From Faecalicoccus pleomorphus DSM 20574 (GTDB lineage: Bacteria > Bacillota_I > Bacilli_A > Erysipelotrichales > Erysipelotrichaceae): DNA of 64,000 bases. The stretch lies in NCBI RefSeq assembly GCF_000420345.1, contig NZ_ATUT01000003.1, positions 1 to 64,000 on the forward strand. The letters are read 5' to 3'. Within the stretch, counting starts at the first letter, position 1. Each line of letters begins with the position of its first letter. Under the pieces are notes generated by a model. It saw nothing but the letters and a program-made list of their open reading frames with translations. It was not told where the DNA came from and ran no database searches. The translations under genes were made by a program, and so were the position numbers. Positions 27,724 through 41,010 of the stretch are shown here, piece after piece.

Positions 27724-27751
27724 GCACTTATTGTACCAAACTCTACGATTT

Positions 27752-29503
27752 CTATCCATTCACAGACGATGAAAACTGGCTGTTGTAGAGCTGATAATAG
27801 AATCCTTTTTGTGATAATAGATCCTGATGTTTTCCCTGTTCTACGATCTTTCCTTCTTTCATCACCAGGATTCGATCGGCATTTTGAATAGTGGATAATC
27901 GATGGGCCACAATAAAACTTGTTCTTCCTTTCATCAGCGTTTCAAAAGCTTTTTGTACACGTAATTCGGTCATGGTATCGATAGAAGAAGTAGCTTCGTC
28001 TAAGATCAAGACCGATGGCGAACACAATAAAATTCGCGCAATGCACAATAACTGTTTTTGCCCCTGTGAAAGATTGCCTCCTCCTTCGGCCAGAATCGTG
28101 TCATAGCCCTCTGGCATCTGTAAGATAAAATTATGCGCATACGCTTTTTTAGCTGCCTCTATGATTTCTTCATCTGTGGCATCCGGCTTCCCATAGGCGA
28201 TATTCTCTTTGACCGTTGCCGCTTTTAACCATGTATCCTGTAAGACCATACCATAACTCGTACGCAAAGAATGACGCGTAATTTCACGAATGTCATGTCC
28301 ATCAAACCAGATGGTGCCTTTTTGCACATCGTAAAAGCGCATAAGAAGATTGATCAGTGTTGTTTTTCCACATCCAGTAGGTCCGACAATGGCAATGCGC
28401 TGTCCCGGTCTAACCGAAACGCTCAAATCCTGAATCAATGGTTTACTTGAACTATACGAAAAATCCACATGTTCCAGCACAACCTCTCCTTTTGGATCCA
28501 CCAAATTCAACGCTCCTTTTTTATCCGGAATTTCTGCCGGTTCATCAATGAGGGCAAAGACACGAGCCGCCGATGCGATCGAGTTTTGAAATTCGGTAAT
28601 AACACCGGTAATCTCATTAAAAGGCTTGGTGTATTGGTTGGTATAACTTAAAAAGCTGGACAGCTGACCGACACTGATCATAGAAGCTGTGCAAGCCAAG
28701 CTTCCCGCAATCGCCACACCGGCATAAATGGATGAATACATCAAACGGGTTGCCGGATTCGTAATAGAAGAATAAAAGGTGGCCTTTAAAGAATAAGTGG
28801 ATAATTTTTCATTGATCTGATCAAATTCTTTTTGTACTTCTTCCTGATGATTAAAGGCCTGCACCACTTTGATCCCGCCCAACATTTCATTGGTAAAAGC
28901 GGTTAACTGTCCTCTGGTCTGTGACTGATATGTAAACATCTGATATGATTTTTTCGCAATGAAATTTGCCAGTAAAAACGAAAGTGGACTTAATAACACA
29001 ACGATCAATGTGATCCAAATATTCAAACTGGCCATAAATAAGATTGTACCTACGATGGTCAAAACACCGGAAAAAAGCTGCGTAAACCCAAGCAATAAAC
29101 CATCTGAAAATTGATCGATATCCGTTATGATTCGACTGATTAAATCACCGGAAGCATGTTGATCTATATAAGATAAAGGCAATACCTGTAAATGATCAAA
29201 AGCCTGTACCCGCAAGTCTTTGACTACATGATACGTAATCTTATTATTGATGTGATTCATCAACCATTGTGCACAGGACGTCATTAAAATCGAAAGCGAA
29301 ATACCAAAAATGATGGCCATTAATCCAGAAAAATCGACCTGTCCGGCTCGTACGATCTTATCAACAGCCTTTCCGGTCATGATTGGCACATACAGGGTAA
29401 ATCCCACAACTATAATCGAAAGAAGAAAGGACAAGAATATCCACCAGCGATAAGGCTTTAAATATGTCAATATTCTTTGTAGCGTCTCTTTATTTTCACG
29501 CAT
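27752..29503 (-). CDS. Heterodimeric ABC exporter, subunit with canonical ATPase site
   Basis: A 583-residue half-transporter with six transmembrane helices followed by a nucleotide-binding domain. Walker A is GPTGCGKTT, the signature is LSQGQKQ, Walker B is VLILDEATSSID and the switch is VAHRLST, all canonical. With the next gene it forms a BmrCD/LmrCD-like exporter, probably for drugs or lipids. The ATG at 29503 follows AAAGGAG and begins one base after the partner's stop codon. Confidence 0.92.
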   Translation of the reverse strand: MRENKETLQRILTYLKPYRWWIFLSFLLSIIVVGFTLYVPIMTGKAVDKIVRAGQVDFSGLMAIIFGISLSILMTSCAQWLMNHINNKITYHVVKDLRVQAFDHLQVLPLSYIDQHASGDLISRIITDIDQFSDGLLLGFTQLFSGVLTIVGTILFMASLNIWITLIVVLLSPLSFLLANFIAKKSYQMFTYQSQTRGQLTAFTNEMLGGIKVVQAFNHQEEVQKEFDQINEKLSTYSLKATFYSSITNPATRLMYSSIYAGVAIAGSLACTASMISVGQLSSFLSYTNQYTKPFNEITGVITEFQNSIASAARVFALIDEPAEIPDKKGALNLVDPKGEVVLEHVDFSYSSSKPLIQDLSVSVRPGQRIAIVGPTGCGKTTLINLLMRFYDVQKGTIWFDGHDIREITRHSLRTSYGMVLQDTWLKAATVKENIAYGKPDATDEEIIEAAKKAYAHNFILQMPEGYDTILAEGGGNLSQGQKQLLCIARILLCSPSVLILDEATSSIDTMTELRVQKAFETLMKGRTSFIVAHRLSTIQNADRILVMKEGKIVEQGKHQDLLSQKGFYYQLYNSQFSSSVNG

Positions 29504-29504
29504 C

Positions 29505-31241
29505 CTAAGCCATCTCCTTTCCAAAGGATTGAGAAGCACATATTTCCTGATAAATCGAATTGTTTTGGATCAAATCTTGATGTTTTCCATAGCCAACAAG
29601 TTTTCCATCATCCATGACCAATATATGATCGGCATCATAAATGGCGGATACGCGCTGCGAAATAATAAAGACCGTTTGATTTTTCGTATTTGTTCGAATC
29701 GCATGGCGCAATCTGGCATCCGTCGCAAAGTCAAGTGCCGAAGCGCTGTCATCCAAGATCAGTATATCCGGATTTCCAACCAAAGCACGAGCGATGGTCA
29801 ATCTTTGTCTTTGACCACCGGAAAGATTGCTTCCTTTTTGAAGAATTTCCAGATCCAATCCTTCTTTCTTTTCCTCAACAAATTCTCTAGCCTGTGCAAT
29901 ATCTAAGGCCTCTAGTATTTCTTCATCTGTAGCATTTCTCTTTTTTAATTGCATATTCTTTCTTAGTGTTCCGGAAAATAATGTCGCCTTTTGTTCGACA
30001 AAGCCAATATGTTCACGAATCGAGAAAGGAGAAAGTGTACCGATTTCTTTTCCATATAAATAAATTTTTCCTTTGGTACGATCATAAAACCGGCACAAGA
30101 GATTGGCCAACGTGGACTTTCCGGCACCGGTAGCCCCAATGATTCCAATCGTTTCTCCCTGTTGTACTTGAAAGCTAATATCCTGCAACACTTCTTTTCC
30201 GGATTTCGCATATTGAAAACTGACATGTTCAAAAACAACTGCCGGAACATCTTTTATACAATTCAGATCTTCTAAATTCGAATCGGACTTCTCTAAAAAG
30301 GAAGGTACGTCAAAAATCGCATTGACACGTCCCAGACTCGCAAAGGCTCTGGATAAAAGAATGATCAGATTGGCCAGTTTGACAAGTTCTGTCAGAATTT
30401 GAAACATGTAATTGATCAAGGCAATAACTTCCCCTTGTGTCAATTCTCCCGCATTCACCTGCAGACCGCCAAAATATAGAATCGCAACAACGCCCAAATT
30501 AACGATCATATAGGTCAAAGGGTTTAATAATGCGGAAATCTTACCGACAAAGATTTGTTTTTGATACAGTGTATCTGTTTCCTGATGAAACTGTTCTTTT
30601 TCTTCGTCTTCTCTGGCAAAAGCACGCACTACACGAATACCGGTTAAATTCTCTCTTGTCTTCAACAAAACTTTATCCAATATCTGCTGCACCTTTTTAT
30701 ATAAAGGCATAGTCATCAACAAAATCGCAAAAACAACGATCATTAAAACCGGAATAACAACCACAAAAATCATGGCCGCCTTTACATTTACGCCAAAAGC
30801 CATAACCATAGCCCCAAATACAACAAAAGGAGAACGTAAAAATAGGCGCAAAAACATATTCAAGCCATTTTGTACCAGATTGATGTCATTGGTCATTCGG
30901 TTGATCAATGTCGATGTACCGATACGATCGATTTCCTGGAACGAAAATGTGTTGATATGAGCAAACAAATCTTTACGCATGGATTGCCCTAAGCTGACTG
31001 CCGATTTGGCGGCAAAGTATTGTGCCGTCAAAGAAAAGGCAAAACCGATGATTCCTAATAAAATCAGTAGCGCTGTCATCTTCCATAAAAAAATCGCATC
31101 CTTTTGGGCAATCCCCACATCAATCATCTGGGCAACAACCAGCGGAACAAACAGTTCAAAGGTTGCTTCTAACATCTTGAACAAAGGCGCTAAGATCGTG
31201 ATCAATGGATAGGCGCGTAAATAATGATATAATCGTTTCAT
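29505..31241 (-). CDS. Heterodimeric ABC exporter, subunit with degenerate ATPase site
   Basis: A 578-residue half-transporter with six transmembrane helices. The nucleotide-binding domain has Walker A GATGAGKST and signature LSGGQRQR. The catalytic glutamate after Walker B is Asp (LILDDSASALD), and the switch histidine is Gln (IISQRVSA). This is the known pattern of the degenerate partner in heterodimeric exporters. It is transcribed divergently from a LysR gene that may control it. Confidence 0.92.
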   Translation of the reverse strand: MKRLYHYLRAYPLITILAPLFKMLEATFELFVPLVVAQMIDVGIAQKDAIFLWKMTALLILLGIIGFAFSLTAQYFAAKSAVSLGQSMRKDLFAHINTFSFQEIDRIGTSTLINRMTNDINLVQNGLNMFLRLFLRSPFVVFGAMVMAFGVNVKAAMIFVVVIPVLMIVVFAILLMTMPLYKKVQQILDKVLLKTRENLTGIRVVRAFAREDEEKEQFHQETDTLYQKQIFVGKISALLNPLTYMIVNLGVVAILYFGGLQVNAGELTQGEVIALINYMFQILTELVKLANLIILLSRAFASLGRVNAIFDVPSFLEKSDSNLEDLNCIKDVPAVVFEHVSFQYAKSGKEVLQDISFQVQQGETIGIIGATGAGKSTLANLLCRFYDRTKGKIYLYGKEIGTLSPFSIREHIGFVEQKATLFSGTLRKNMQLKKRNATDEEILEALDIAQAREFVEEKKEGLDLEILQKGSNLSGGQRQRLTIARALVGNPDILILDDSASALDFATDARLRHAIRTNTKNQTVFIISQRVSAIYDADHILVMDDGKLVGYGKHQDLIQNNSIYQEICASQSFGKEMA

Positions 31242-31279
31242 ATTCCCGTTCCTTTCTATTCTACTTTAAAAGGTTCTGT

Positions 31280-31285
31280 TATAAT
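31280..31285 (+). promoter_or_regulatory. Extended -10 promoter of the LysR gene
   Basis: TGTTATAAT lies 27 bases before the LysR ATG and 38 bases from the divergent ABC exporter start. No clear -35 box is seen. The 70-base gap between the genes would hold any LysR operator. Confidence 0.6.
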
Positions 31286-31311
31286 GATTTCAAATCGAAA
31301 AGAGGCTTTTT

Positions 31312-32190
31312 ATGACTTTGGTTCAATTACACTATTTTAAAACCATCTGTAAATACAACAATTTAACACGAGCCGCCAAGGCTCTGCACATTTCCCAACC
31401 TACATTAACGCATGTGATTCATGACTTGGAGCAGGAATTTGGCATTACTTTATTTCTGCGCCAGAACAAGGGTTTGGTCTTAACTAAGCAGGGACAAGAT
31501 TTTTTAAATGAAGCCAATCTATTACTGGAACAGGCAGATGCCTTTTCCAATCGAATGAAGTTTTTAGGCCATACGCATCAAGCGGTGCAATTTGGCCTGT
31601 CCCCGGCCAGTTCCACCTTATATTTTCCTTTGATTGCGCAAGCTTTATATCAACAATATCCACAGATTCAAACGATTCTTGTGGAAAACGGAAGCATGTT
31701 GAACCGACAAAAAATCATTGATGGAAAACTAGATTTAGCCATCATTTCATCAAATGCTCCTATACCTTCTACATTAGGTTCCTACAAAATCGCAAACACC
31801 AGAGTTTGCCTGTTTGTTCATAAGGAACATCCTTTGGCCAAAAAGAATATGTTATCGATACAAGAAATCAAGGAGCAACCTTTGGTCATGTTGTCCGAAG
31901 AATCTTTTCTTACTACCGCAACCATCAGCCAATGCATGCACTATAAGATTGATCCCAATATCATTTTAACAACCAACCAGATTTCTATTATCAAACAGCT
32001 GGTGACCAACAAAATTGCCGCTACTCTCCTTTTTGAACATACTTTACCGGACGATCAAGAATATGTATCGATTCCGGTAACAGAGTTTCAAGCAATTCAG
32101 ATTTACTTGATCTGGAATCAGTATAAGCAGATGACACCTGCCATGCAGCATTTGATCGAAGTGACCAGGCAAGTGTATCCAAATAACTAA
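31312..32190 (+). CDS. LysR-family transcriptional regulator
   Basis: A 292-residue protein with an N-terminal winged helix (TRAAKALHISQPTLTHVIHDLE) and a C-terminal substrate-binding domain. AGAGG precedes the ATG. It is divergent from the ABC exporter pair and is the last host gene before the integrated island. The ligand is unknown. Confidence 0.93.
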   Translation: MTLVQLHYFKTICKYNNLTRAAKALHISQPTLTHVIHDLEQEFGITLFLRQNKGLVLTKQGQDFLNEANLLLEQADAFSNRMKFLGHTHQAVQFGLSPASSTLYFPLIAQALYQQYPQIQTILVENGSMLNRQKIIDGKLDLAIISSNAPIPSTLGSYKIANTRVCLFVHKEHPLAKKNMLSIQEIKEQPLVMLSEESFLTTATISQCMHYKIDPNIILTTNQISIIKQLVTNKIAATLLFEHTLPDDQEYVSIPVTEFQAIQIYLIWNQYKQMTPAMQHLIEVTRQVYPNN

Positions 32191-32311
32191 TTCGTTCCTT
32201 ATTGTAATCGTATTATTAAAAAAACACCAATACATATAAATTAGTGTGTCATAAATTTTATTTATGAACATTTCATATCTTATGCCAGAAAGAAAACAAC
32301 AAAATTAAAAA

Positions 32312-32419
32312 TTTTTAGTACCAAACGAGTATCACAAGCCAAAAAGAAAAGCCCTTATCTGCTTTAGATAAAGGCTTTTTCTTATATATTTTGTCTTCGT
32401 TAAATTACTTAACTTCAAC
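32312..32419. repeat. Left attachment repeat (rplL 3' end copy)
   Basis: It aligns without gaps to 40514-40621, with mismatches only at 32321, 32327, 32338, 32385 and 32388. It includes a second copy of the rplL terminator and the last five codons plus stop of rplL. Upstream of 32312 is host DNA after the LysR gene, and similarity stops at 32419. The gap from 32191 to 32534 holds this repeat and AT-rich DNA, with no gene. Confidence 0.9.
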
Positions 32420-32534
32420 TTCTTTGCGATTTATTTTTATTATTCCACCTATATATAAGGCATATTTAGTGCTTTTTATTCCTTATATTTTATATAAAGA
32501 ACAATGAAAATAGAATTTCAGTATCAAATTAGTA

Positions 32535-32951
32535 TCATTTAGGTAGATCAGAATAGAGCTTTTCATACTGCTCTACGGCCTCCCTTTTTAGTCTAAACCC
32601 CTCACCGGGTGTAATGTGCATAAAGCCCGATATTTTCTCTATATCCCAATGGTAAAGATAATACCCTTCGAGCATTTCACTATAAGGCTTTTCCATTTTT
32701 TCTATACGCTCTTTTATGAGCCACCATTTATTGTGCTTTGCCAATCCCGCCTCTGCTGTCTCACGTTCCAAAGAATCAATATAGATGAACTTCTTCAAGG
32801 TTGGATCACTGACCTTCTGATCATAGGGGATCTTGTCATACTGAACCGCCTTGACATCGTAAAACGTTGATTTCGCCTTTTTGAGCTTATCCATCATGTA
32901 CCACCATTCTTCTGTTAATATGGCCAATTCCTCAAAGTCGTTCATTTCCAT
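32535..32951 (-). CDS. ArpU/RinA-like phage late-gene regulator (probable)
   Basis: A 138-residue protein. The C-terminal part YYLYHWDIEKISGFMHITPG followed by FRLKREAVEQYEKLY looks like the sigma-region-4-like helix-turn-helix of the ArpU/DUF1492 family. Members of that family switch on phage packaging and lysis genes. The N-terminal half is rich in Trp, Lys and Glu. GGAGAG precedes the ATG at 32951. It lies just after the capsid-gene terminator and ends inside a GTATCA repeat near the island end. The family assignment is by pattern only. Confidence 0.55.
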   Translation of the reverse strand: MEMNDFEELAILTEEWWYMMDKLKKAKSTFYDVKAVQYDKIPYDQKVSDPTLKKFIYIDSLERETAEAGLAKHNKWWLIKERIEKMEKPYSEMLEGYYLYHWDIEKISGFMHITPGEGFRLKREAVEQYEKLYSDLPK

Positions 32952-32965
32952 TTTCTCTCCATTCT

Positions 32966-33004
32966 TTTAAAAAATAGGACACCCCGGGGGAGAGGTGCCC
33001 TATA
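32966..33004 (-). terminator. Terminator after the capsid gene
   Basis: On the minus strand a stem of ATAGGGCACC and GGTGTCCTAT with one mismatch is followed by six T residues. It lies about 70 bases after the capsid stop and only about 15 bases before the ArpU-like gene, so that gene needs read-through or its own promoter. Confidence 0.85.
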
Positions 33005-33074
33005 TGCAGTCTGTTATTACCTTTTCTTTGCTAAGCCACTTTTGCGAATAAGGAGTTAATACCTTTCTGTAAAT

Positions 33075-33914
33075 CTACTCCGCTGTTACAGCCTGGTAGT
33101 AGATAGCGTTCTTCTTATTCTCTAAAACAAAAGCGTCATATACAATTCGACCCTCTACAAGATCACCACTGATCCCAGGTGGGTCACTGTGCACCTTATA
33201 ATCTTCCAATTTGGCCGGTGCTACGGTAGCCACCTTATGGCATACCATAAAGCCAAATTGAGCCGGTAAACGCTTGGCCGGTACTTTCACTACTGAAAGA
33301 CCGTCAACCATAGCAATGACACCCTGTAGGCGCTGTTCCTGTGCCACATCACTGTCTAGTGTGATGTCCGGGCACTGTTTTAACAGTTTGTACGTTGTAG
33401 GGGTCACGATCAAGACACGGCCTGTGTCCGGGGCCTCTGCGTCGTCCAAAGCCTCAGTGGCCTTCAAGATCTCGTCATAGATATTTGTTTCTGTCAATTC
33501 AATGGCAGAAGGCGTATTTCCGGCCCCTGTGCACATTTTATTGAATACATAGGTATCTACTTCGGGGATAATGACTTCACGCTCCTGTCGGGCTAAAGCA
33601 CTTGCTCCGGCTAGCTGTTGTGCTGTTTCGTCTTTGTCCATTTTATCAATGGCAAAGGTGAAAGATCGATCCTTTGTCAATGTGAGTTCTTCTGTTGTTG
33701 CATTAAGGCTTGCAACGGTACCATATCTAGAATTACCTTCATTCGTTCCCTCACGGTCGTAGTCGTTCATGGTAGCAGTGCTGATCTTATAGACCTTGAC
33801 TGTATGAGCGCCTGTCCATGTGAAATCGTTATTCGTTACAAGGCTCTTCTTGGCCTCTGTCGTGAACATCTCATCAACGTAGGGCTCAAATTTTGTGACT
33901 AAATCAATAGCCAT
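33075..33914 (-). CDS. Phage major capsid protein (HK97-fold type)
   Basis: A 279-residue protein that reads like the major capsid proteins of Firmicutes siphophages: DLVTKFEPYVDEMF at the start, then SFTFAIDKMDKDETAQ and a C-terminal GRIVYDAFVLENKKNAIYYQ. It would assemble the shell with the scaffold encoded directly upstream. No delta domain is fused to it, which fits a separate scaffold. GGAG lies before the ATG at 33914. It is 18 bases after the scaffold gene. Confidence 0.85.
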   Translation of the reverse strand: MAIDLVTKFEPYVDEMFTTEAKKSLVTNNDFTWTGAHTVKVYKISTATMNDYDREGTNEGNSRYGTVASLNATTEELTLTKDRSFTFAIDKMDKDETAQQLAGASALARQEREVIIPEVDTYVFNKMCTGAGNTPSAIELTETNIYDEILKATEALDDAEAPDTGRVLIVTPTTYKLLKQCPDITLDSDVAQEQRLQGVIAMVDGLSVVKVPAKRLPAQFGFMVCHKVATVAPAKLEDYKVHSDPPGISGDLVEGRIVYDAFVLENKKNAIYYQAVTAE

Positions 33915-33932
33915 TGTTTATCACTCCTTTAT

Positions 33933-34448
33933 CTATTCTTTAGGAGCAAAAGCAGATTTTAAATTGTCATTGTTGCCTGTTTTGAATTTATCGCCATGAA
34001 TGGGCGGTTTCCCTTTTAGAAATGCTTTCTTGATCTCATATTCTTTATCATCTAAAACCTTTTTAAAGACATTCAATACATGAGTATAACTCTCTTCAAA
34101 TTCGTCTTTATTAGATAAATTCATGAGCGCGATCAATTCTGTAGGAAGTCCTTCTTTCAAAAGGCGTTCCCGACCTTCTGCTCTAAACTCCCTTTGTGTT
34201 ACTTCTCGTTCTCTTCGATCCAATTCCGTTTCTACCGGGTTTAGGATCTTTTCAAATTTTTTGTGCTGTTGTGCAAGTCTTCGCTTTACAATTCTTTCTA
34301 AGTCTTCCTCTGAAAACTTCTTGACCTTTTTAGGATCTTCTTCCTCGCTTTTTTCAGCACCTTCTGTCTGTTGTTCAGTAGTGACAGCCTCTACTTCTTC
34401 CGGGTTTTGTTCGTTTTGGATTCCCTCAACCATTTCTTCTTGTGGCAT
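33933..34448 (-). CDS. Phage scaffolding protein (DUF4355-like)
   Basis: A 171-residue, highly charged, helical protein. An acidic Glu/Gln-rich N-terminus is followed by a coiled-coil segment (SEEDLERIVKRRLAQQHKKFE and ELDRREREVTQREFRAEGRE) and a short basic C-terminus likely to bind capsid. This is the normal pattern of scaffolds that precede such capsid genes. I use the ATG at 34448, which has AGAGAGG upstream. A longer reading reaches into the hairpin region and gives an unlikely sequence. Confidence 0.82.
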   Translation of the reverse strand: MPQEEMVEGIQNEQNPEEVEAVTTEQQTEGAEKSEEEDPKKVKKFSEEDLERIVKRRLAQQHKKFEKILNPVETELDRREREVTQREFRAEGRERLLKEGLPTELIALMNLSNKDEFEESYTHVLNVFKKVLDDKEYEIKKAFLKGKPPIHGDKFKTGNNDNLKSAFAPKE

Positions 34449-34508
34449 GTATTGCCCTCTCTTTCTATGCCTTTTAAGCGCAAGGCCTAGCGCCTTTTGA
34501 GGTGTCGC

Positions 34509-34634
34509 GCCACGCTGAATAGAACCAAAAATAAAAGCGTGGCTCCTCGACCTTAAACAAGGGGATTCCCACGCTGAAAATATGAATAGAGGAATAAAAA
34601 AGCGTGGGATCATGAAAAACATACTTTCCCACGC
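34509..34634 (-). other. Duplicated stem-loop array upstream of the scaffold gene
   Basis: Two hairpins share sequence. One has arms GCCACGCT (34509-34516) and AGCGTGGC (34536-34543). The other has arms TCCCACGCT (34567-34575) and AGCGTGGGA (34601-34609). Both loops contain GAATAGA and an A-rich AATAAAA stretch, so the unit was duplicated. A third half-site TCCCACGC lies at 34627-34634. The array falls in the 5' leader of the scaffold-capsid transcript. The whole gap 34449-34872 has no convincing gene. Possible roles are a packaging or origin site, or an RNA control element. Confidence 0.7.
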
Positions 34635-34692
34635 CCGGAGTTAGGCTTACTTTGATAAAAGGGAAAACGTCAATTAAGAACCCTTTAATCAT

Positions 34693-34731
34693 TGCGGTAC
34701 TTATGGCTATATTATACCATGCCTTACCGCA
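34693..34731 (-). promoter_or_regulatory. Promoter inside a palindrome, for the scaffold-capsid genes
   Basis: On the minus strand a TGG-extended -10 box TATAAT (34711-34716) sits at the centre of an inverted repeat with arms TGCGGTA (34693-34699) and TACCGCA (34725-34731). No consensus -35 box is present, as expected for an activated or operator-controlled late promoter. Transcripts would run through the stem-loop array into the scaffold gene. Confidence 0.6.
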
Positions 34732-34872
34732 TTTATATACCTTATAATCAAGTGAAAAGCCCCTTATACAAGGAGCTCCACTTTTTACGCTTTTGTGTTT
34801 AGCTGAATAAGAATGATGTCAAATCCCATGCTTAGACTGTCCTCAGACTCGACTCAGCCCATAGGTATTATA

Positions 34873-35031
34873 TCACATTTCCGGCCAATCGGTTAGTTTG
34901 TCCGATTCTTCTTTTAATCTCTCGTATTCTTTATCAAGTTCTTCCGAAGAAAGGCCGGAGAAAATAATACCGTCATAATAGCCTAAAGTTTTTTCCTCTT
35001 TGTCCTTACCTTTTTTCTTCTTTTTAGCCAT
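34873..35031 (-). CDS. Small lysine-rich protein, unknown
   Basis: A 52-residue ORF that starts MAKKKKKGKDKEEKTLGYYDG and ends with a helical EELDKEYERLKEESDKLTDW segment. AGAGGTGA precedes the ATG at 35031. It follows the 121-residue acidic protein gene by 12 bases. Basic N-termini of this sort occur in small phage proteins, but no family is recognised. Confidence 0.65.
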   Translation of the reverse strand: MAKKKKKGKDKEEKTLGYYDGIIFSGLSSEELDKEYERLKEESDKLTDWPEM

Positions 35032-35043
35032 AATCGCTCACCT

Positions 35044-35409
35044 CTATATAGCACCTAATATTTCCTCTAGTCCCTCACGAAGTTGTTCTTCGTTTATACA
35101 GTATGGATCATGAGCTACAATTTCATCGCACGGATCATATCGATCTGCAAGTTCCCATATTCGTGACACGATAGTATTCTCGTCATTTCGATCATTAGGA
35201 TCAGCAGAGTACTCCAAATCTTCCTCATGATCCACCCAAAATTGATCAACATAGTTACAGTATTCCTTAGCTGTCATTGAGTTACCACTAAGAAAATCCT
35301 TTGTGTGATCAATAAAGCTATTATAGGGTGTCTTTGATCGGTCATATGTATCTATTTGTTTGCATAACTCTTCTAAGTCTAGTCTATCATCTACTATATA
35401 GCTATTCAT
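35044..35409 (-). CDS. Acidic small protein, unknown
   Basis: A 121-residue, strongly acidic protein (many Asp and Glu; for example VDHEEDLEYSADPNDRNDE) with no membrane segment. I use the ATG at 35409, which has GAGGGG upstream, rather than an upstream start with no ribosome binding site. The charge pattern would suit a DNA mimic or an antirestriction-like protein, but that is speculation. Confidence 0.65.
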   Translation of the reverse strand: MNSYIVDDRLDLEELCKQIDTYDRSKTPYNSFIDHTKDFLSGNSMTAKEYCNYVDQFWVDHEEDLEYSADPNDRNDENTIVSRIWELADRYDPCDEIVAHDPYCINEEQLREGLEEILGAI

Positions 35410-35488
35410 TGTTACCCCTCTAGTTACATTATACCCCATTTCCTCGCGTGCGCGCGTATATGTTGGCCTTTGTTGGTTAAGCCATTAA

Positions 35489-35511
35489 AAAGACGAGCCT
35501 TTCACTCGTCC
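35489..35511 (-). terminator. Terminator with a stop codon in its loop
   Basis: On the minus strand GACGAG and CTCGTC pair and are followed by TTTTT. The TGA of the 48-residue gene lies in the loop. It ends the primase-side transcript before the acidic-protein gene. Confidence 0.75.
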
Positions 35512-35648
35512 TTTAACATTACATAGGCTTTCTTGTATGGCCCTTCATTGTTCTTTGATCTCTTGACCTTCTTGATCTTGCCCTTGAATCGAGAAAGAAC
35601 CCTGTATAGCTCTTTCTCGTCTTCATAGCTTACTGTGAGCTTAATCAT
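35502..35648 (-). CDS. Very small basic protein, unknown
   Basis: A 48-residue ORF that begins MIKLTVSYEDEKELYRVLSR and continues with a lysine-rich KGKIKKVKRSK stretch. The short beta-alpha pattern resembles small phage proteins of the early region. Its ATG at 35648 overlaps the stop of the gene before it by eight bases, and a GGGG-rich sequence lies upstream. It ends in a terminator hairpin. Confidence 0.65.
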   Translation of the reverse strand: MIKLTVSYEDEKELYRVLSRFKGKIKKVKRSKNNEGPYKKAYVMLKDE

Positions 35649-35952
35649 ACTTATACCCCGTCAGCTCATACATCCACGCCTTAAAATCTTTGTATGAGGC
35701 GTTATCTGTGCCTTTCTTACGGAGATAATTCAGCACACTGTAGTACATGGCCATATGGTTATGGTCATACCGCTCTTTGTTGCTCTTTTGGCCGTTGTAA
35801 TAACCATATCTATAAATATCTGAAAGCCATTCGTCCATACTTTCTGCATTCATGATCAAGGCCTTACACTCTAGAATTGTTACATACCCCATACCTGGCA
35901 TATCTTGTACCTTTTCTCTAATTTGTTCGATCATATCTTCGGTGATAATCAT
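35641..35952 (-). CDS. Small protein, unknown
   Basis: A 103-residue protein rich in Tyr and Met (SDIYRYGYYNGQKSNKERY). It is probably helical and cytoplasmic. It sits between a 50-residue gene (19 bases upstream) and an overlapping 48-residue gene. The layout suggests one early operon that begins at the Cro-like gene. I do not recognise the family. Confidence 0.7.
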   Translation of the reverse strand: MIITEDMIEQIREKVQDMPGMGYVTILECKALIMNAESMDEWLSDIYRYGYYNGQKSNKERYDHNHMAMYYSVLNYLRKKGTDNASYKDFKAWMYELTGYKYD

Positions 35953-35971
35953 AGTTTTTTTCCTCTTCTTT

Positions 35972-36124
35972 CTAAAAACACTTTCTTTGTTTAATTACAT
36001 AGATTTCATACGATAAAACCGCTAAAATACACTCTTGCATTGTCAAATCCGGATTTTTCTTTTTAAGCTCTCTCGCCGTTTTTAAAACACTGCTTTCTAT
36101 AAAATTCACTGTCCAATCTGACAT
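35972..36124 (-). CDS. Small protein, unknown
   Basis: A 50-residue protein starting MSDWTVNFIESSVLKTARE. The ATG at 36124 follows AGAGAGG with good spacing. A longer reading from a TTG at 36223 lacks a ribosome binding site and would cover part of the repeat region after the primase gene. Function unknown. Confidence 0.6.
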   Translation of the reverse strand: MSDWTVNFIESSVLKTARELKKKNPDLTMQECILAVLSYEIYVIKQRKCF

Positions 36125-36189
36125 TGTTACGTCCTCTCTTTCTATATATGGTAGTCTTTTTATGTATCCATTCCCTATGATGTTGTGGT

Positions 36190-36330
36190 GAAGGGCAAGT
36201 TGAGTTAAGTTGTTATACTTCAAATCTCATATTGTCTATCTATTTGACTCAATTTGACCCAATAGGGCAATATGAGTAAGTATTGATTATATAAGGCTTT
36301 TTTCTCAATTTGTCCCTCTATCAATGGGTC
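36190..36330. other. Candidate replication origin after the primase gene
   Basis: This AT-rich stretch holds three copies of CTCAA(T/C)TTG: 36197-36205 (inverted), 36248-36256 and 36304-36312. It also holds an inverted pair CTCATATTG (36226-36234) and CAATATGAG (36268-36276), and a GACCCA/TGGGTC pair (36257-36262, 36325-36330). Iterons next to the primase-helicase gene are where phage-inducible islands keep their origin. No gene covers most of 36125-36329. Confidence 0.5.
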
Positions 36331-38150
36331 TATAGAAGTTTGTCCTCTTCGGGTAGCGAAATAAACCATTTTACGCCTTTTTTATCCCCTTTTCCCTCAC
36401 ACCTCATTTTGACCTTTTTGGACGAATTGAGTTCTTCTTTTGCGTTTCTAATGGTTTTGTCAGATATTCCGGCCTCTTTTAAGGCTGTATTTAAATCCTT
36501 GATATTCATTTCCCCTTGATCCTCAAGAAGGTCAAGTATCATCTGCTTTGCCTCATCTCTTGCCGGTGCACTTCGTTCAAGTTTCTTCTCATGCACAAAG
36601 TCCCAATCTTTCTTTTCGGTTGATCCTAAGAACTTAGGTACCTGGTCCACAAGCATATAGAGCACTGTCTTATTTAATGGCGCATAATTGCTTTTAGCAT
36701 GGTCAAGGTACAAGCTCCCGTTTTTGGTCTTACCCAAAAGGAAGGCACTTCTCGCGATGTCGAATATATCCGAGCTATCCGCAAAACGGCCTCTCCCGGA
36801 GCGATCACTCATCTTATTAGTGTGCATGACAATGATCATGGTTGTACCGGTCTCGGTGCCCAATGCTACTAAAGGATTAAGTGCGTCTCTCATCTGATTC
36901 CTGTAGCCCATATTTACATTAGGGGGCAAAAAGCTCTGTAAAGGGTCAAATATACATCCGTCCGGCCTATGCTCCAAAATTGTATTTTTGAGTGTTTCGC
37001 TATTGAATTTCATGTATTCAAAGTTGGGATCAGTATAAGGCACGCTTAGAATATTGCTCATGTTTGCCCCATTACTGATCAGACGTTCAGATAAGACCTC
37101 TTCCAATTCGTCCTCTGAGCTCAATACAAGAAACTTCATAGGCTTTCTTGGGTTACTACTGAACTCTATAGGATCTTCAAAGAAACAGGGCTTTCCGGCA
37201 CTCAGACAAGCCACTATATGGCACCAAAGAAATGTTTTACCCGTCCCACCATCAGCACCTATCAGCGTGATCTTCCCCTTTGGAATCCACCCCGGTATCA
37301 GCCATTCAATGGGTTTAGGTTGTACATCAGCCATTGAAACAAGGCTAACTTCTTTCGGTATGTCTTCTCTCTCGTACTCGTCAAAGTTATTTATAGACGG
37401 AAATACTTCACTCTCAAGCTCTTCCTCACTCAAGGGTGGTACACACTTATTTTCATTGATATTTCTGATCATAGCCTTTATGGCCTCATCATCCGCCATA
37501 TTTCCTTTAAAGGTGTGACGACCAATAGCTTTAACTAGATAGTCAGTTCGCCCACCTTCCGGCACCATAGCAAGATTCTGTGAGGATTGTGGTAGTGTTT
37601 CTTTTTTAGTCATGGCCTTAAACTGCATAAGTTCGAGCACGCTCTCATTTGCCTCTGCCGGCTCAATATCGTTAAGCCACTCGTAGTATTTTCCTCTATA
37701 TATAGAAGGTGGCGCTATAATACAATTCCTGTCACCTCGTGTATCAACTCCCGGCAAAATATTACTTCTTCCTTTTATGTGGATCTCTTGAGGCACCTTA
37801 AAATAATAATGACGGCCACCTGTAGTAGTCTTTGCCATACGAGTATTAGGAAAGGCTCCGTGCTCTGCTTGCCACTTTTCAATAGATTCAAAGCCATTTA
37901 CACCATTTCTCTTATGCTCCGGACTGTCAACATCAATAACACAAACATTATCCCTGTTCCCGTGACCAGTTCCAATGGCTATATTCCCCGACCAATTTTG
38001 TACCGGTGTTTTTCTAAGCTTTCCCGGCCAATCTTCACCGGCTAAGAAAATGACTTTTTTACTTCCATCTTCCTTTGTGCTAAGCTTTATAGGGGTGATA
38101 TAAAGGCCTTGCTTTATGTAGGAGTTGGCAAAGTCTTTAAGACTCATCAT
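36330..38150 (-). CDS. Primase-helicase (prim-pol domain plus RepA-like AAA domain)
   Basis: A 606-residue replication protein. The N-terminal prim-pol domain (about residues 1-190) shows the acidic motif VCVIDVDSPEH, then TTTGGRHYYFKV and GVDTRGDRNCIIAPPS. The central helicase domain has Walker A GADGGTGKTF and a Walker B-like CIFDPLQSF. The last 80 residues form a winged helix (GISDKTIRNAKEELN). It would start replication of the excised island. Its ATG overlaps the stop codon of the Xis-like gene, so the two are co-translated. Confidence 0.88.
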   Translation of the reverse strand: MMSLKDFANSYIKQGLYITPIKLSTKEDGSKKVIFLAGEDWPGKLRKTPVQNWSGNIAIGTGHGNRDNVCVIDVDSPEHKRNGVNGFESIEKWQAEHGAFPNTRMAKTTTGGRHYYFKVPQEIHIKGRSNILPGVDTRGDRNCIIAPPSIYRGKYYEWLNDIEPAEANESVLELMQFKAMTKKETLPQSSQNLAMVPEGGRTDYLVKAIGRHTFKGNMADDEAIKAMIRNINENKCVPPLSEEELESEVFPSINNFDEYEREDIPKEVSLVSMADVQPKPIEWLIPGWIPKGKITLIGADGGTGKTFLWCHIVACLSAGKPCFFEDPIEFSSNPRKPMKFLVLSSEDELEEVLSERLISNGANMSNILSVPYTDPNFEYMKFNSETLKNTILEHRPDGCIFDPLQSFLPPNVNMGYRNQMRDALNPLVALGTETGTTMIIVMHTNKMSDRSGRGRFADSSDIFDIARSAFLLGKTKNGSLYLDHAKSNYAPLNKTVLYMLVDQVPKFLGSTEKKDWDFVHEKKLERSAPARDEAKQMILDLLEDQGEMNIKDLNTALKEAGISDKTIRNAKEELNSSKKVKMRCEGKGDKKGVKWFISLPEEDKLL

Positions 38151-38368
38151 CTCATCACCCCACAGCGTTCCATAAAGTACTTACGTGGAACTCGTCCGGC
38201 TACTGTATAGTAGCCCTTTTTCTTTAGCTCTCCGTTCATGGATCGCATAAGCTCGTAGGCCTTACCTTTGGATACTTTGAGCATAGACATTACCTCATCT
38301 ACAAAGATGAAATATTGATCCTTGATCTCTTGGTACCCCTCTTTAAATTCTTCATGCATCTTAATCAC
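38147..38368 (-). CDS. Excisionase-like small helix-turn-helix protein
   Basis: A 73-residue protein with a winged-helix pattern (FVDEVMSMLKVSKGKAYELM, then a YYTVAGRVPRKYFMERCG wing), like the AlpA/Xis-type proteins of Gram-positive phages and islands. It probably steers the integrase toward excision or acts as a regulator. It overlaps its neighbours on both sides by four bases. Confidence 0.65.
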   Translation of the reverse strand: MIKMHEEFKEGYQEIKDQYFIFVDEVMSMLKVSKGKAYELMRSMNGELKKKGYYTVAGRVPRKYFMERCGVMR

Positions 38369-38571
38369 CTCTTTTCTAATAGATCTTCAAGTTTCATGCC
38401 TAATGCGTCCGCAATCTTCTTGCCTGTCTCATAGGTGCATGATCCGCCATTGCAGACTTTATTCAGCGTAAAACGAGCCACTTCTGATTTCTTAGCTAAT
38501 TCAATCTGTGTTATGTCACGATCATACAAGACACCTCTCAATAGCTTTGCGTCTATTCTCATCTTTCTCAC
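38365..38571 (-). CDS. Cro-like repressor (XRE helix-turn-helix)
   Basis: A 68-residue protein made almost wholly of an XRE domain (ITQIELAKKSEVARFTLNKV and a C-terminal ALGMKLEDLLEKR). It is divergent from the main repressor gene and is the first gene of the early operon, as Cro is in phages and Str in SaPI islands. It probably binds the same operators. Confidence 0.8.
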   Translation of the reverse strand: MRKMRIDAKLLRGVLYDRDITQIELAKKSEVARFTLNKVCNGGSCTYETGKKIADALGMKLEDLLEKR

Positions 38572-38591
38572 CTCGCTTTTTTAGGTTTCTT

Positions 38592-38684
38592 TTGCAACCT
38601 CAATCACATTATAATGGTTGCATTTGTAACTGTCAATAAGTAAAAATGTTTTCTTTTGCAACCTATAAAAATGTCTGTTATTAT
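38592..38684. promoter_or_regulatory. Divergent repressor/early promoters with three operator half-sites
   Basis: The leftward early promoter is consensus on the minus strand: TTGACA (38631-38636), 17 bases, TATAAT (38608-38613). The rightward repressor promoter is TTGCAA (38656-38661), 17 bases, TATTAT (38679-38684). A shared motif TTGCAACC occurs at 38592-38599 and 38656-38663, and inverted as GGTTGCA at 38616-38622. These copies overlap the spacer of the early promoter and the -35 box of the repressor promoter, as operators would. Confidence 0.82.
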
Positions 38685-38696
38685 ATAAACGGTGAT

Positions 38697-39314
38697 ATGA
38701 TGAAATTTGGTGAGAAAATAAAAGAGCTACGAGTCTCGAAAAAAATGACACAAAAAGAACTTGCTGAAAAAGCAAATGTTGGAATGTCTACGATCAAACA
38801 ATATGAGCTAGGATACAGAAAGCCAAAAATAGAAAATCTCGAAAAAATCGCAGAAGCTTTAGGTGTAAGTGTCTTTGAATTTTATAGTGACAGCATAAAA
38901 GATTTTAAAATAGCCTTATCTAGCAAATTAGAAAAATCTGAGCTAGATAAGTTAGCAAGTTACTTATATGTAGAGCTAGGTATGGAAATCGTACCTATAA
39001 ATAAAAATAAATACATGATAAAATTTGACGAATTAGACTCTTCTATAGAGCAGTTCAAGGCTCCTAAAGAACCTATATTAGTCAGCGAAAATTATTTATT
39101 AGATTTAAAAAGTAAAATCAATGATTGCTTATTACAAGAAATTAAGTCATTGATTAACTCAACTGAGGCACTAAATAAGATATTAAACAATCCGAATTTT
39201 GATTTTTTGAATTCCAAATTTGATAAACATTTAGATGAGGAATCAAAAAAGAAAATAGGAGACTTCTTAGATTGGTACATGGATAAGTATTGGAAAGGGA
39301 TATACAAAGATTAG
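38697..39314 (+). CDS. Island master repressor (XRE helix-turn-helix, no peptidase domain)
   Basis: A 205-residue protein with an N-terminal XRE domain (KMTQKELAEKANVGMSTIKQ, then YELGYRKPKIENLEKIAEAL). The C-terminal part is helical and shows no S24/LexA-type serine-lysine protease motif. It therefore should not cleave itself after DNA damage. Release by a helper-phage protein, as with Stl in SaPIs, is a fitting model. I start it at the ATG at 38697, after GGTG. The neighbouring ATG at 38700 is equally possible. Confidence 0.8.
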   Translation: MMKFGEKIKELRVSKKMTQKELAEKANVGMSTIKQYELGYRKPKIENLEKIAEALGVSVFEFYSDSIKDFKIALSSKLEKSELDKLASYLYVELGMEIVPINKNKYMIKFDELDSSIEQFKAPKEPILVSENYLLDLKSKINDCLLQEIKSLINSTEALNKILNNPNFDFLNSKFDKHLDEESKKKIGDFLDWYMDKYWKGIYKD

Positions 39315-39449
39315 ATAAAATAAAAAAGCCCCTCAGTGCGCCAACACTGAAGGGCCAGGACGTAAAAAAACTTCACTACCACATGAAAGACTTTTTACGT
39401 GCCTATTTTATCAAATTTCGATTAGAATTGAAAGGTAGGTAGAAACATT
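39315..39449 (+). terminator. Hairpins between the repressor and integrase genes
   Basis: Two stem-loops fill the gap. One pairs CCCCTCAGTG with CACTGAAGGG, and the next pairs ACGTAAAAA with TTTTTACGT. Neither has a strong T tail on the plus strand. They may end or attenuate repressor transcription so that the integrase is expressed less. Confidence 0.45.
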
Positions 39450-40511
39450 ATGCCCGTTTACAAAGATGAAAAAACTAACACATGGTACTGTAAGTTCTAC
39501 TATGAGGACTATACAGGAGCTAAAAAGCAAAAATTCAAGCGTGGTTTCAAGCTCAAGAAAGAGGCACAGGAGTATGAAAAACAATTTCTAGTGCTCCACA
39601 GTGAAGATAATACCATGCTTTTTAGCACCCTCATAAAGGACTATAAACGTGACATGTATACACGCTTTAAGCCTTCCACGATAGAAAGCCATGAGAATAT
39701 CATAAACAAGCATATAGCACCATTCTTTAATAATTTACCATTGAATCAGATCACCCCTAAAACTGTGAGGAAATGGCAAAACGAACTCTTAGAAAGCCCT
39801 AAAACGTATTCTCAAAGCTATCTGAATACGATCTACACCCAATTAGTGGCTATATTCAATTATGCAATCAAGTATCATGGACTTAAGCAAAATCCGGCCT
39901 CTCTCTGTGGCTCCATAGGCAAAGCCAGGGCTAAAAGAGACATGACCATATGGACTTTAGACGATTTCAAGCTATTTCTCACCTATGAAGATGATCCACT
40001 GTACTATTGTGCTTTTAACATTCTGTATTATACCGGTATGCGCATAGGTGAGCTTATGGCCTTAACATGGGATGATATCGACCTTGAAAAGAAAGAAATC
40101 CATATATCTAAATCCTTGCAACGCTTTAATGGCATAGAGCATATAACAGCCCCTAAGACCGCCAAAAGCGTTAGATCTATCGTGATTTTCGACCATTTAA
40201 TAGAAATACTCAAAGAATACAAAAAGCGCCTGTATGAGTCCAATACTGACCGATTATTCAATGTTACAAAGTCAAGTTTTGGAAGAGAGCTCAAGAGGAA
40301 AGCAAAACTAGCCGGACTTCCGGAAATACGTGTACATGATCTTAGACATAGCCATGCAAGCCTTTTAATTGAATTGGGTTTTAACCCTGTAGCCATAGCT
40401 GACAGACTAGGACATGAAAGTATCAAGATCACGCTAGATACATACAGCCATTTATACCCTAATAAACAGGATCAAATAGCCCAAAAGCTTGAAGAAATAA
40501 GTAAAAATTAA
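39450..40511 (+). CDS. int: Tyrosine-recombinase integrase
   Basis: A 353-residue phage-type integrase. An N-terminal arm-binding domain (YKDEKTNTWYCKFYYED) and a SAM-like core-binding domain precede the catalytic domain. Catalytic residues are visible: Arg in TGMRIGELMAL, His-Leu-Arg in VHDLRHSHASLL, His in RLGHESIKITLDTY, and the nucleophile Tyr in TYSHLYP. It lies next to the right attachment repeat, as expected for the enzyme that recombines at rplL. Confidence 0.95.
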   Translation: MPVYKDEKTNTWYCKFYYEDYTGAKKQKFKRGFKLKKEAQEYEKQFLVLHSEDNTMLFSTLIKDYKRDMYTRFKPSTIESHENIINKHIAPFFNNLPLNQITPKTVRKWQNELLESPKTYSQSYLNTIYTQLVAIFNYAIKYHGLKQNPASLCGSIGKARAKRDMTIWTLDDFKLFLTYEDDPLYYCAFNILYYTGMRIGELMALTWDDIDLEKKEIHISKSLQRFNGIEHITAPKTAKSVRSIVIFDHLIEILKEYKKRLYESNTDRLFNVTKSSFGRELKRKAKLAGLPEIRVHDLRHSHASLLIELGFNPVAIADRLGHESIKITLDTYSHLYPNKQDQIAQKLEEISKN

Positions 40512-40513
40512 TT

Positions 40514-40621
40514 TTTTTAGTATCAAACTAGTATCACAAACCAAAAAGAAAAGCCCTTATCTGCTTTAGATAAAGGCTTTTTCTTACATGTTTTGTCTTC
40601 GTTAAATTACTTAACTTCAAC
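40514..40621. repeat. Right attachment repeat (rplL 3' end)
   Basis: This copy of the 108-bp direct repeat is joined to the body of rplL. It supplies the gene's last five codons, stop and terminator. It begins three bases after the integrase stop. Its outer part contains AGTATCAAACTAGTATCA, a motif also found twice near the left end. Confidence 0.9.
40543..40585. terminator. Bidirectional terminator shared by rplL and int
   Basis: AAGCCCTTATCT and AGATAAAGGCTT form a stem flanked by A-rich and T-rich tracts on both sides, so it can end rplL on the minus strand and int on the plus strand. The same structure is duplicated in the left repeat at about 32341-32383. Confidence 0.9.
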
Positions 40622-40975
40622 AGTAGCACCAGCAGCAACCAATTTTTCTTTGATCTGTTCTGCTTCTTCTGGGCTAACGTTTTCTTTGATAGCAGCTGGA
40701 GCACCATCAACCAGTTTCTTAGCATCTACTAATCCTAAACCAGTGATTTCACGTACTGCTTTGATTACAGCAACTTTAGTTCCACCTACATCTGTCAAAG
40801 TTACAGTTACTTCGCTTGGTCCAGCAGCAGCTGCTTCTTCAACTGGAGCAGCAGCTACAGCAGCAGCTGCAACGACACCGAATTTTTCTTCGATTGCGCT
40901 TACTAAGTCATTCAGTTCTAAAATTGTAGCTTCTTCTAAGTAAGCAAGAATATCTTCCTGAGTTAATTTAGCCAT
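40607..40975 (-). CDS. rplL: 50S ribosomal protein L7/L12
   Basis: A 122-residue stalk protein that recruits translation GTPases. The N-terminal dimerisation part ([20 protein letters not shown]), an Ala-rich hinge ([17 protein letters not shown]) and the C-terminal domain ending [17 protein letters not shown] are intact. The island uses its 3' end as an integration site. The last codons now come from the attachment repeat without changing the protein. Confidence 0.98.
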
Positions 40976-41010
40976 TTTCTTTTTCCTCCTATGTTATTTT
41001 GTTAGGCAGC

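Follow-up and report, generated by a model that had tools for sequence, protein, structure and literature searches.

A probable 8.2-kb phage satellite carrying scaffold and capsid genes at the 3' end of rplL in Faecalicoccus pleomorphus

Background

The 3' end of rplL is a documented target of streptococcal integrative conjugative elements (ICEs) of the Tn5252 family, as the original prediction for this locus had noted; these elements use a tyrosine integrase and accrete in tandem at the site (PMC4701971, PMC7168690). Their rplL repeats hold the exact gene end only (PMC4701971), tandem elements at rplL have been described in S. suis (PMC7168690), and insertion of a newcomer beside a decayed or resident element (accretion) is likewise known (PMC5704250). 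SaPIbov5-type cos SaPIs with Ccm (PMC8569155) and PmCI172 (PMC6092414) are small satellites that carry a homologue of a phage capsid protein. The capsid-forming PICIs (PMC10690885, PMC10803314) encode shell proteins and obtain the rest from a helper. An attachment site that is not used by the temperate phages of the host is a listed trait of Gram-negative PICIs (PMC6092414).

Here we describe the element at 32312-40621 of a stretch of 64,000 nucleotides, referred to as a whole as the window. The reading that we favour, with fair confidence, is that it is an integrated phage satellite of about 8.2 kb, that its left repeat stems from an earlier element, and that its scaffold and capsid proteins would build a small shell to be completed by a helper. 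Like the streptococcal ICEs it has a tyrosine integrase at the rplL 3' end, but it carries no conjugation genes (no relaxase or conjugation module was found among its proteins) and its repeat runs well past the gene end. Ccm has its own delta domain and needs the capsid protein of the helper, whereas the element described here has a separate scaffold gene and a phrog_422 capsid protein. Capsid-forming PICIs add a protease, a portal, connectors, both terminase subunits and an HNH protein and average 14 kb, whereas our element has none of these genes and measures 8.2 kb. In Streptococcus phage Javan246 (MK448884), which has a homologous major capsid protein (49% identical) with a scaffold gene upstream, the two genes lie between terminase/portal and connector/tail genes, whereas in the satellite they stand alone. 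Integration at rplL is by itself ordinary; the interest lies in the shell-only gene set and in its spread. The island is probably a widespread "shell-only" variant between the Ccm-type PICIs and the capsid-forming PICIs. We found no description of a shell-only layout in the openly accessible literature, and its novelty is provisional.

Results and Discussion

The rplL repeats and the position of the crossover

The element is bounded by direct repeats at 32312-32419 and 40514-40621, whose starts lie 8202 bp apart and which, in an ungapped alignment, are identical at 103 of 108 positions, as had been claimed. Such a match at a distance of 8.2 kb is far beyond chance; the pair is the sole direct repeat of at least 40 bp within 20000-64000, and a search of the genome found no further match to the two copies. 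The right copy, attR (40514-40621, minus strand), extends from the last five codons and the stop of rplL through the core, a terminator hairpin and an arm site to the stop of int. The target gene rplL (L7/L12; 40607-40975, minus strand) is intact, and its protein is 94-95% identical in genus mates. The hairpin of the right copy folds in the sense of rplL (-18.6 kcal/mol, z -4.1) and in that of int (-15.3, z -3.5), and the left copy folds too (-18.3, z -3.5); an Rfam scan of 31000-41000 gave no match. The original prediction of site-specific integration at the rplL 3' end is supported by this anatomy, with the adjacent tyrosine integrase as the likely recombinase, and the details hold as well, in that the right copy restores the last five codons and the stop, leaves L7/L12 unchanged, and supplies a terminator that can serve both int and rplL.

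Empty rplL sites in relatives had been proposed as a check, and we compared two genus mates that are other species. One of them (G002) has an empty site with a single copy, in which rplL runs into an identical stretch of 28 bp (GTTGAAGTTAAGTAATTTAACGAAGACA) and then into its own terminator, related to but different from that of the window (82% identical to both copies over 79 bp). In the other (G001), 20 shared bases after rplL are followed by an unrelated terminator. The 28-bp core common to the G002 site (40594-40621, minus strand; identical in attL at 32392-32419, minus strand) contains the palindrome GTTAA-GTAAT-TTAAC. Since G002 shares these 28 bp only, and the palindrome lies within them, we place the crossover at the gene end and regard the terminator in attR as element-borne; these comparisons make a stretch of 28-31 bp at the end of rplL the most probable site of the crossover. 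The five mismatches between the repeats (32321, 32327, 32338, 32385 and 32388) leave 31 bp, 32389-32419, without a difference. The original prediction correctly placed the crossover in the identical stretch nearest the gene; its use of the mismatches as a marker of the crossover needs revising, since on the reading given below they would mainly reflect how old the left copy is and not only where the crossover lies. The tyrosine integrase would recombine this core of about 28-31 bp (the last five rplL codons and stop) with the same sequence in the element. Behind the core the element would supply a terminator and arm sites of its own, leaving rplL with an unaltered protein and a terminator. Only one of 36 integrase-centred loci, that of the window, adjoins rplL. 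A pattern scan of viral contigs for the core found none, and for the arm found two contigs, both lacking the satellite layout.

A putative scar of an earlier element

Arm-type sites of integrases normally lie inside both ends of an element. The motif AGTATCAAAyTAGTATCA, a putative arm-type site identified by motif scans, occurs on the int side (40519-40536, plus strand; AGTATCAAACTAGTATCA) and inside the far end (32520-32537, plus strand; AGTATCAAATTAGTATCA). It also occurs, decayed by two changes, outside the element (32317-32334, plus strand; AGTACCAAACGAGTATCA). The left repeat copy (32312-32419, minus strand) is made up of core, terminator and this decayed arm, and the arm and terminator of an int-side end thus sit outside attL. 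Because an arm site lies outside the element and comparable scars are found in three satellites at other loci, the left copy is best read as more than attB, namely as the remaining int-side end, or scar, of a related element that came before. This older element, recognising the same site, would already have occupied the locus; the present one would have inserted at its attR, on the rplL side, and the older body would have disappeared afterwards. The putative scar comprises about 80 bp (arm and terminator), and no body of an older element is visible beside the left copy. A candidate integrase remnant left of 32312 was rejected as too weak to use, the similarity being confined to about 20 AT-rich bases. 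If the scar is genuine, a terminator-plus-arm signature would show in a simple way, from sequence, that a site had once been occupied, and would make the turnover of elements measurable from genomes alone.

The related loci described below provide a comparison for the arm sites. Allowing up to four mismatches, the window-type arm occurs 20 times in 2.4 Mb of family loci (both strands) and not at all in shuffled sequences. With up to two mismatches, three elements (that of the window, L146 and L165) have it inside each end; copies beyond an element boundary are confined to the window and L184, the own arms of L184 being of another type. L116, L133 and L184 carry paired short direct repeats immediately inward of the outer repeat at either end. 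Outer flanks are homologous to the int-side interior in L146 (98 against a random maximum of 38) and in L150 (55 against 31), where the homology reaches the integrase gene itself. A short open reading frame beside the integrase of L146 (3290-3400) resembles a small membrane toxin gene, and a remnant of the same stretch lies beyond the far end. In L195 (12212-12380), two adjacent tRNA-like ends occur at the far boundary, making three tRNA-end copies in all, and perhaps represent a tRNA pair rather than a scar.

A single integration would require no scar if attP had captured about 108 bp of host sequence downstream of rplL, the left copy then being the native terminator region. This is in keeping with the likeness of the native G002 terminator to both copies and with the repeat of L184, which likewise spans gene end and terminator and indicates that element-borne terminator replicas occur. 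However, it does not account for the arm-type site in the left copy: the arm motif is absent from the stretch read downstream of rplL in both G001 and G002, and two of the five repeat mismatches coincide with differences between the left arm and the other two arm copies. We consider a single integration unlikely, and a 108-bp match between attP and attB fits less well than accretion because of the roughly 80 extra bp beyond the gene end, including an arm site outside the element. Next to the putative scar, between it and the native downstream gene, lie a LysR regulator and two ABC exporter genes (27752-32190). These could be cargo of the older element, left as a CIME-like remnant beside the present one, since they are absent downstream of rplL in G001, G002 and G024 and have no close copy in genus mates, and since accretion next to a decayed element has been described (PMC5704250). 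Against this, a search for a copy of the core near 27750, left of the LysR gene, found none, and the base composition of the stretch is ordinary (39.3% GC, compared with 40.1% to its left); we regard the cargo explanation as decidedly doubtful.

Gene content and the proposed role of the shell proteins

The integrase (353 aa; 39450-40511, plus strand), with Arm-DNA-bind_4 and SAM-like domains, and a CI-like repressor (HTH_3; 38646-39314, plus strand) were both assigned by Pfam and PHROGs. Divergent from the repressor, a small Cro-like HTH protein (38365-38571, minus strand) clusters with HTH regulators of the family, and it is followed by a Xis/AlpA-like protein (38147-38368, minus strand; phrog_989, 2.3e-21; 53.6 bits to the ICEBs1 excisionase model, below its cut-off of 100). 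A primase-polymerase of 606 aa with an AAA helicase domain comes next (36330-38150, minus strand; Pfam and PHROGs). The scaffold protein (33933-34448, minus strand; phrog_172, 2.8e-12) is likely 171 aa long, with a start chosen by ribosome site and relatives, the longest reading frame beginning at 34622. The major capsid protein (279 aa; 33075-33914, minus strand) matches phrog_422 (4.5e-64) and the capsid protein of PDB 8e16 (1.3e-10); its AlphaFold model was too poor to use (mean pLDDT 49). The last gene (138 aa; 32535-32951, minus strand) weakly resembles DUF1492 and sigma-70 region 4 (E 0.015 and 0.077, both matches below the cut-off) and is a possible late regulator. Small reading frames are also present. 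Upstream of the scaffold gene, the segment 34495-34645 contains two strong hairpins with the same CCACGC/GCGTGG stem (-43.5 kcal/mol, z -2.4), a candidate origin, packaging or control site.

In the broad sense the element resembles a PICI: it is a small island with an integrase, divergent regulators, its own replication gene and precise att repeats, and it lacks a complete set of phage structural or lysis genes. It differs from the capsid-forming PICIs in having a scaffold and a capsid protein only. Except for the integrase and the primase, no reading frame exceeds 300 aa, so the element can encode neither a large terminase (TerL) nor a portal of usual size. The original prediction of a small satellite-like island was right as to the satellite and undersold it, in that the island carries scaffold and major capsid genes and is a member of a recurrent satellite family. 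Judging from gene content, a helper phage would lift repression, whereupon the satellite would excise and replicate with its primase-polymerase/helicase. The expressed scaffold and major capsid protein would then form a small shell, with portal, terminase, connectors and tail for packaging supplied by the helper. A search of this genome for a helper prophage by six single families found none, which is compatible with a helper arriving from outside. One weak match to phrog_2 was discarded as a sign of a helper, the model being non-specific with matches in 11 of 14 controls.

Relatives in other genomes and evolution of the capsid protein

A scan of bacterial genome contigs with the capsid alignment returned 162 relatives, and the analysis continued with the best 80, whose identity is 61-72%; the satellites are inferred from genomes, many of them draft, and L072 and L136 are by sequence the same locus (Erysipelotrichaceae). 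Many gut bacteria carry relatives of the 8-kb satellite. The layout of integrase, repressor, replication gene, scaffold and capsid is common to those of the best 80 of 162 loci that have enough flank. By tblastn, a large terminase of the Javan type is absent from 78 of these 80 loci and present in L151 and L156, and not all members of the capsid clade are therefore shell-only. A profile test agreed with tblastn on the terminase, its portal profile being a single seed and insensitive, and in ten satellites (110 reading frames) the absence of portal and terminase is judged mainly from the sizes of the reading frames. One locus (L150) encodes a single minor head protein in addition. Where repeats of at least 39 bp mark the ends, the elements are 7.2-9.4 kb long and lie at tRNA ends and, in L146 and L184, at a gene ending TIEWE*, which we take to be guaA. 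The terminase-bearing L156 (1443-15323) measures 13.9 kb by a 25-bp repeat. It belongs to the same clade by its capsid protein, has genes for both the small and the large terminase after the capsid gene, and is possibly an intermediate towards capsid-forming satellites.

A tree of 84 capsid proteins places the genome loci, the two with a terminase among them, in one group (96/95), with the 15 phage capsid proteins apart from it (98/94); the sample consists of the closest matches only, and closer phages may exist outside it. Seven close pairs gave dN/dS ratios of 0.04-0.12, comparisons that involve the window being saturated, and the satellite capsid genes are under strong purifying selection.

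The conservation of these genes bears on whether the element is a satellite at all, since the integrase, repressor, replication gene, scaffold and capsid could be leftovers of a full phage, as might be supposed from the scaffold and capsid genes, which have homologues in Javan246 and share their order. Yet dozens of genomes show this reduced layout, with precise repeats and with replication genes and integration sites that differ, and the capsid genes form their own clade under purifying selection; we dropped the reading as a prophage remnant on these grounds and hold it to be very improbable. A closer contest concerns what the capsid protein does. Like Ccm of SaPIbov5, which occupies pentamers and forms no shells alone (PMC8569155), it could join the capsid protein of the helper and redirect shell size without building a shell of its own, and the lack of portal or connector genes would suit such a role. 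In most loci the capsid gene comes with a dedicated scaffold gene, which indirectly suggests self-assembly, and we hold the Ccm-like role to be possible though the less probable of the two. For the proposal in its general form, a widespread and so far unnamed lineage of satellites of about 8 kb in Clostridia and Erysipelotrichia whose members contribute just a self-sufficient shell made of scaffold and major capsid protein, often have a sigma-factor-like gene next to the shell genes, and rely on another virus for portal, terminase and tail, we see an even chance. If the shell genes work in this way, the capsid shell would be a unit that can be transferred independently of portal and packaging motor, and such satellites, spread across gut Firmicutes, would be intermediate between those that remodel a capsid and those that form a complete one.

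The genes near the capsid gene vary among the relatives. A sigma-70-like protein of 220-310 aa adjoins the capsid gene in about 26 family loci (cluster F4; for example L118, L119, L120, L147 and L184) and is perhaps a regulator of the late genes of the satellite. In other family loci, short sigma-like or DUF1492-like proteins lie beside the capsid gene. In L185 and L191 a second integrase and an AlpA-like gene are found 3-4 kb after the capsid gene, which suggests neighbouring or tandem elements.
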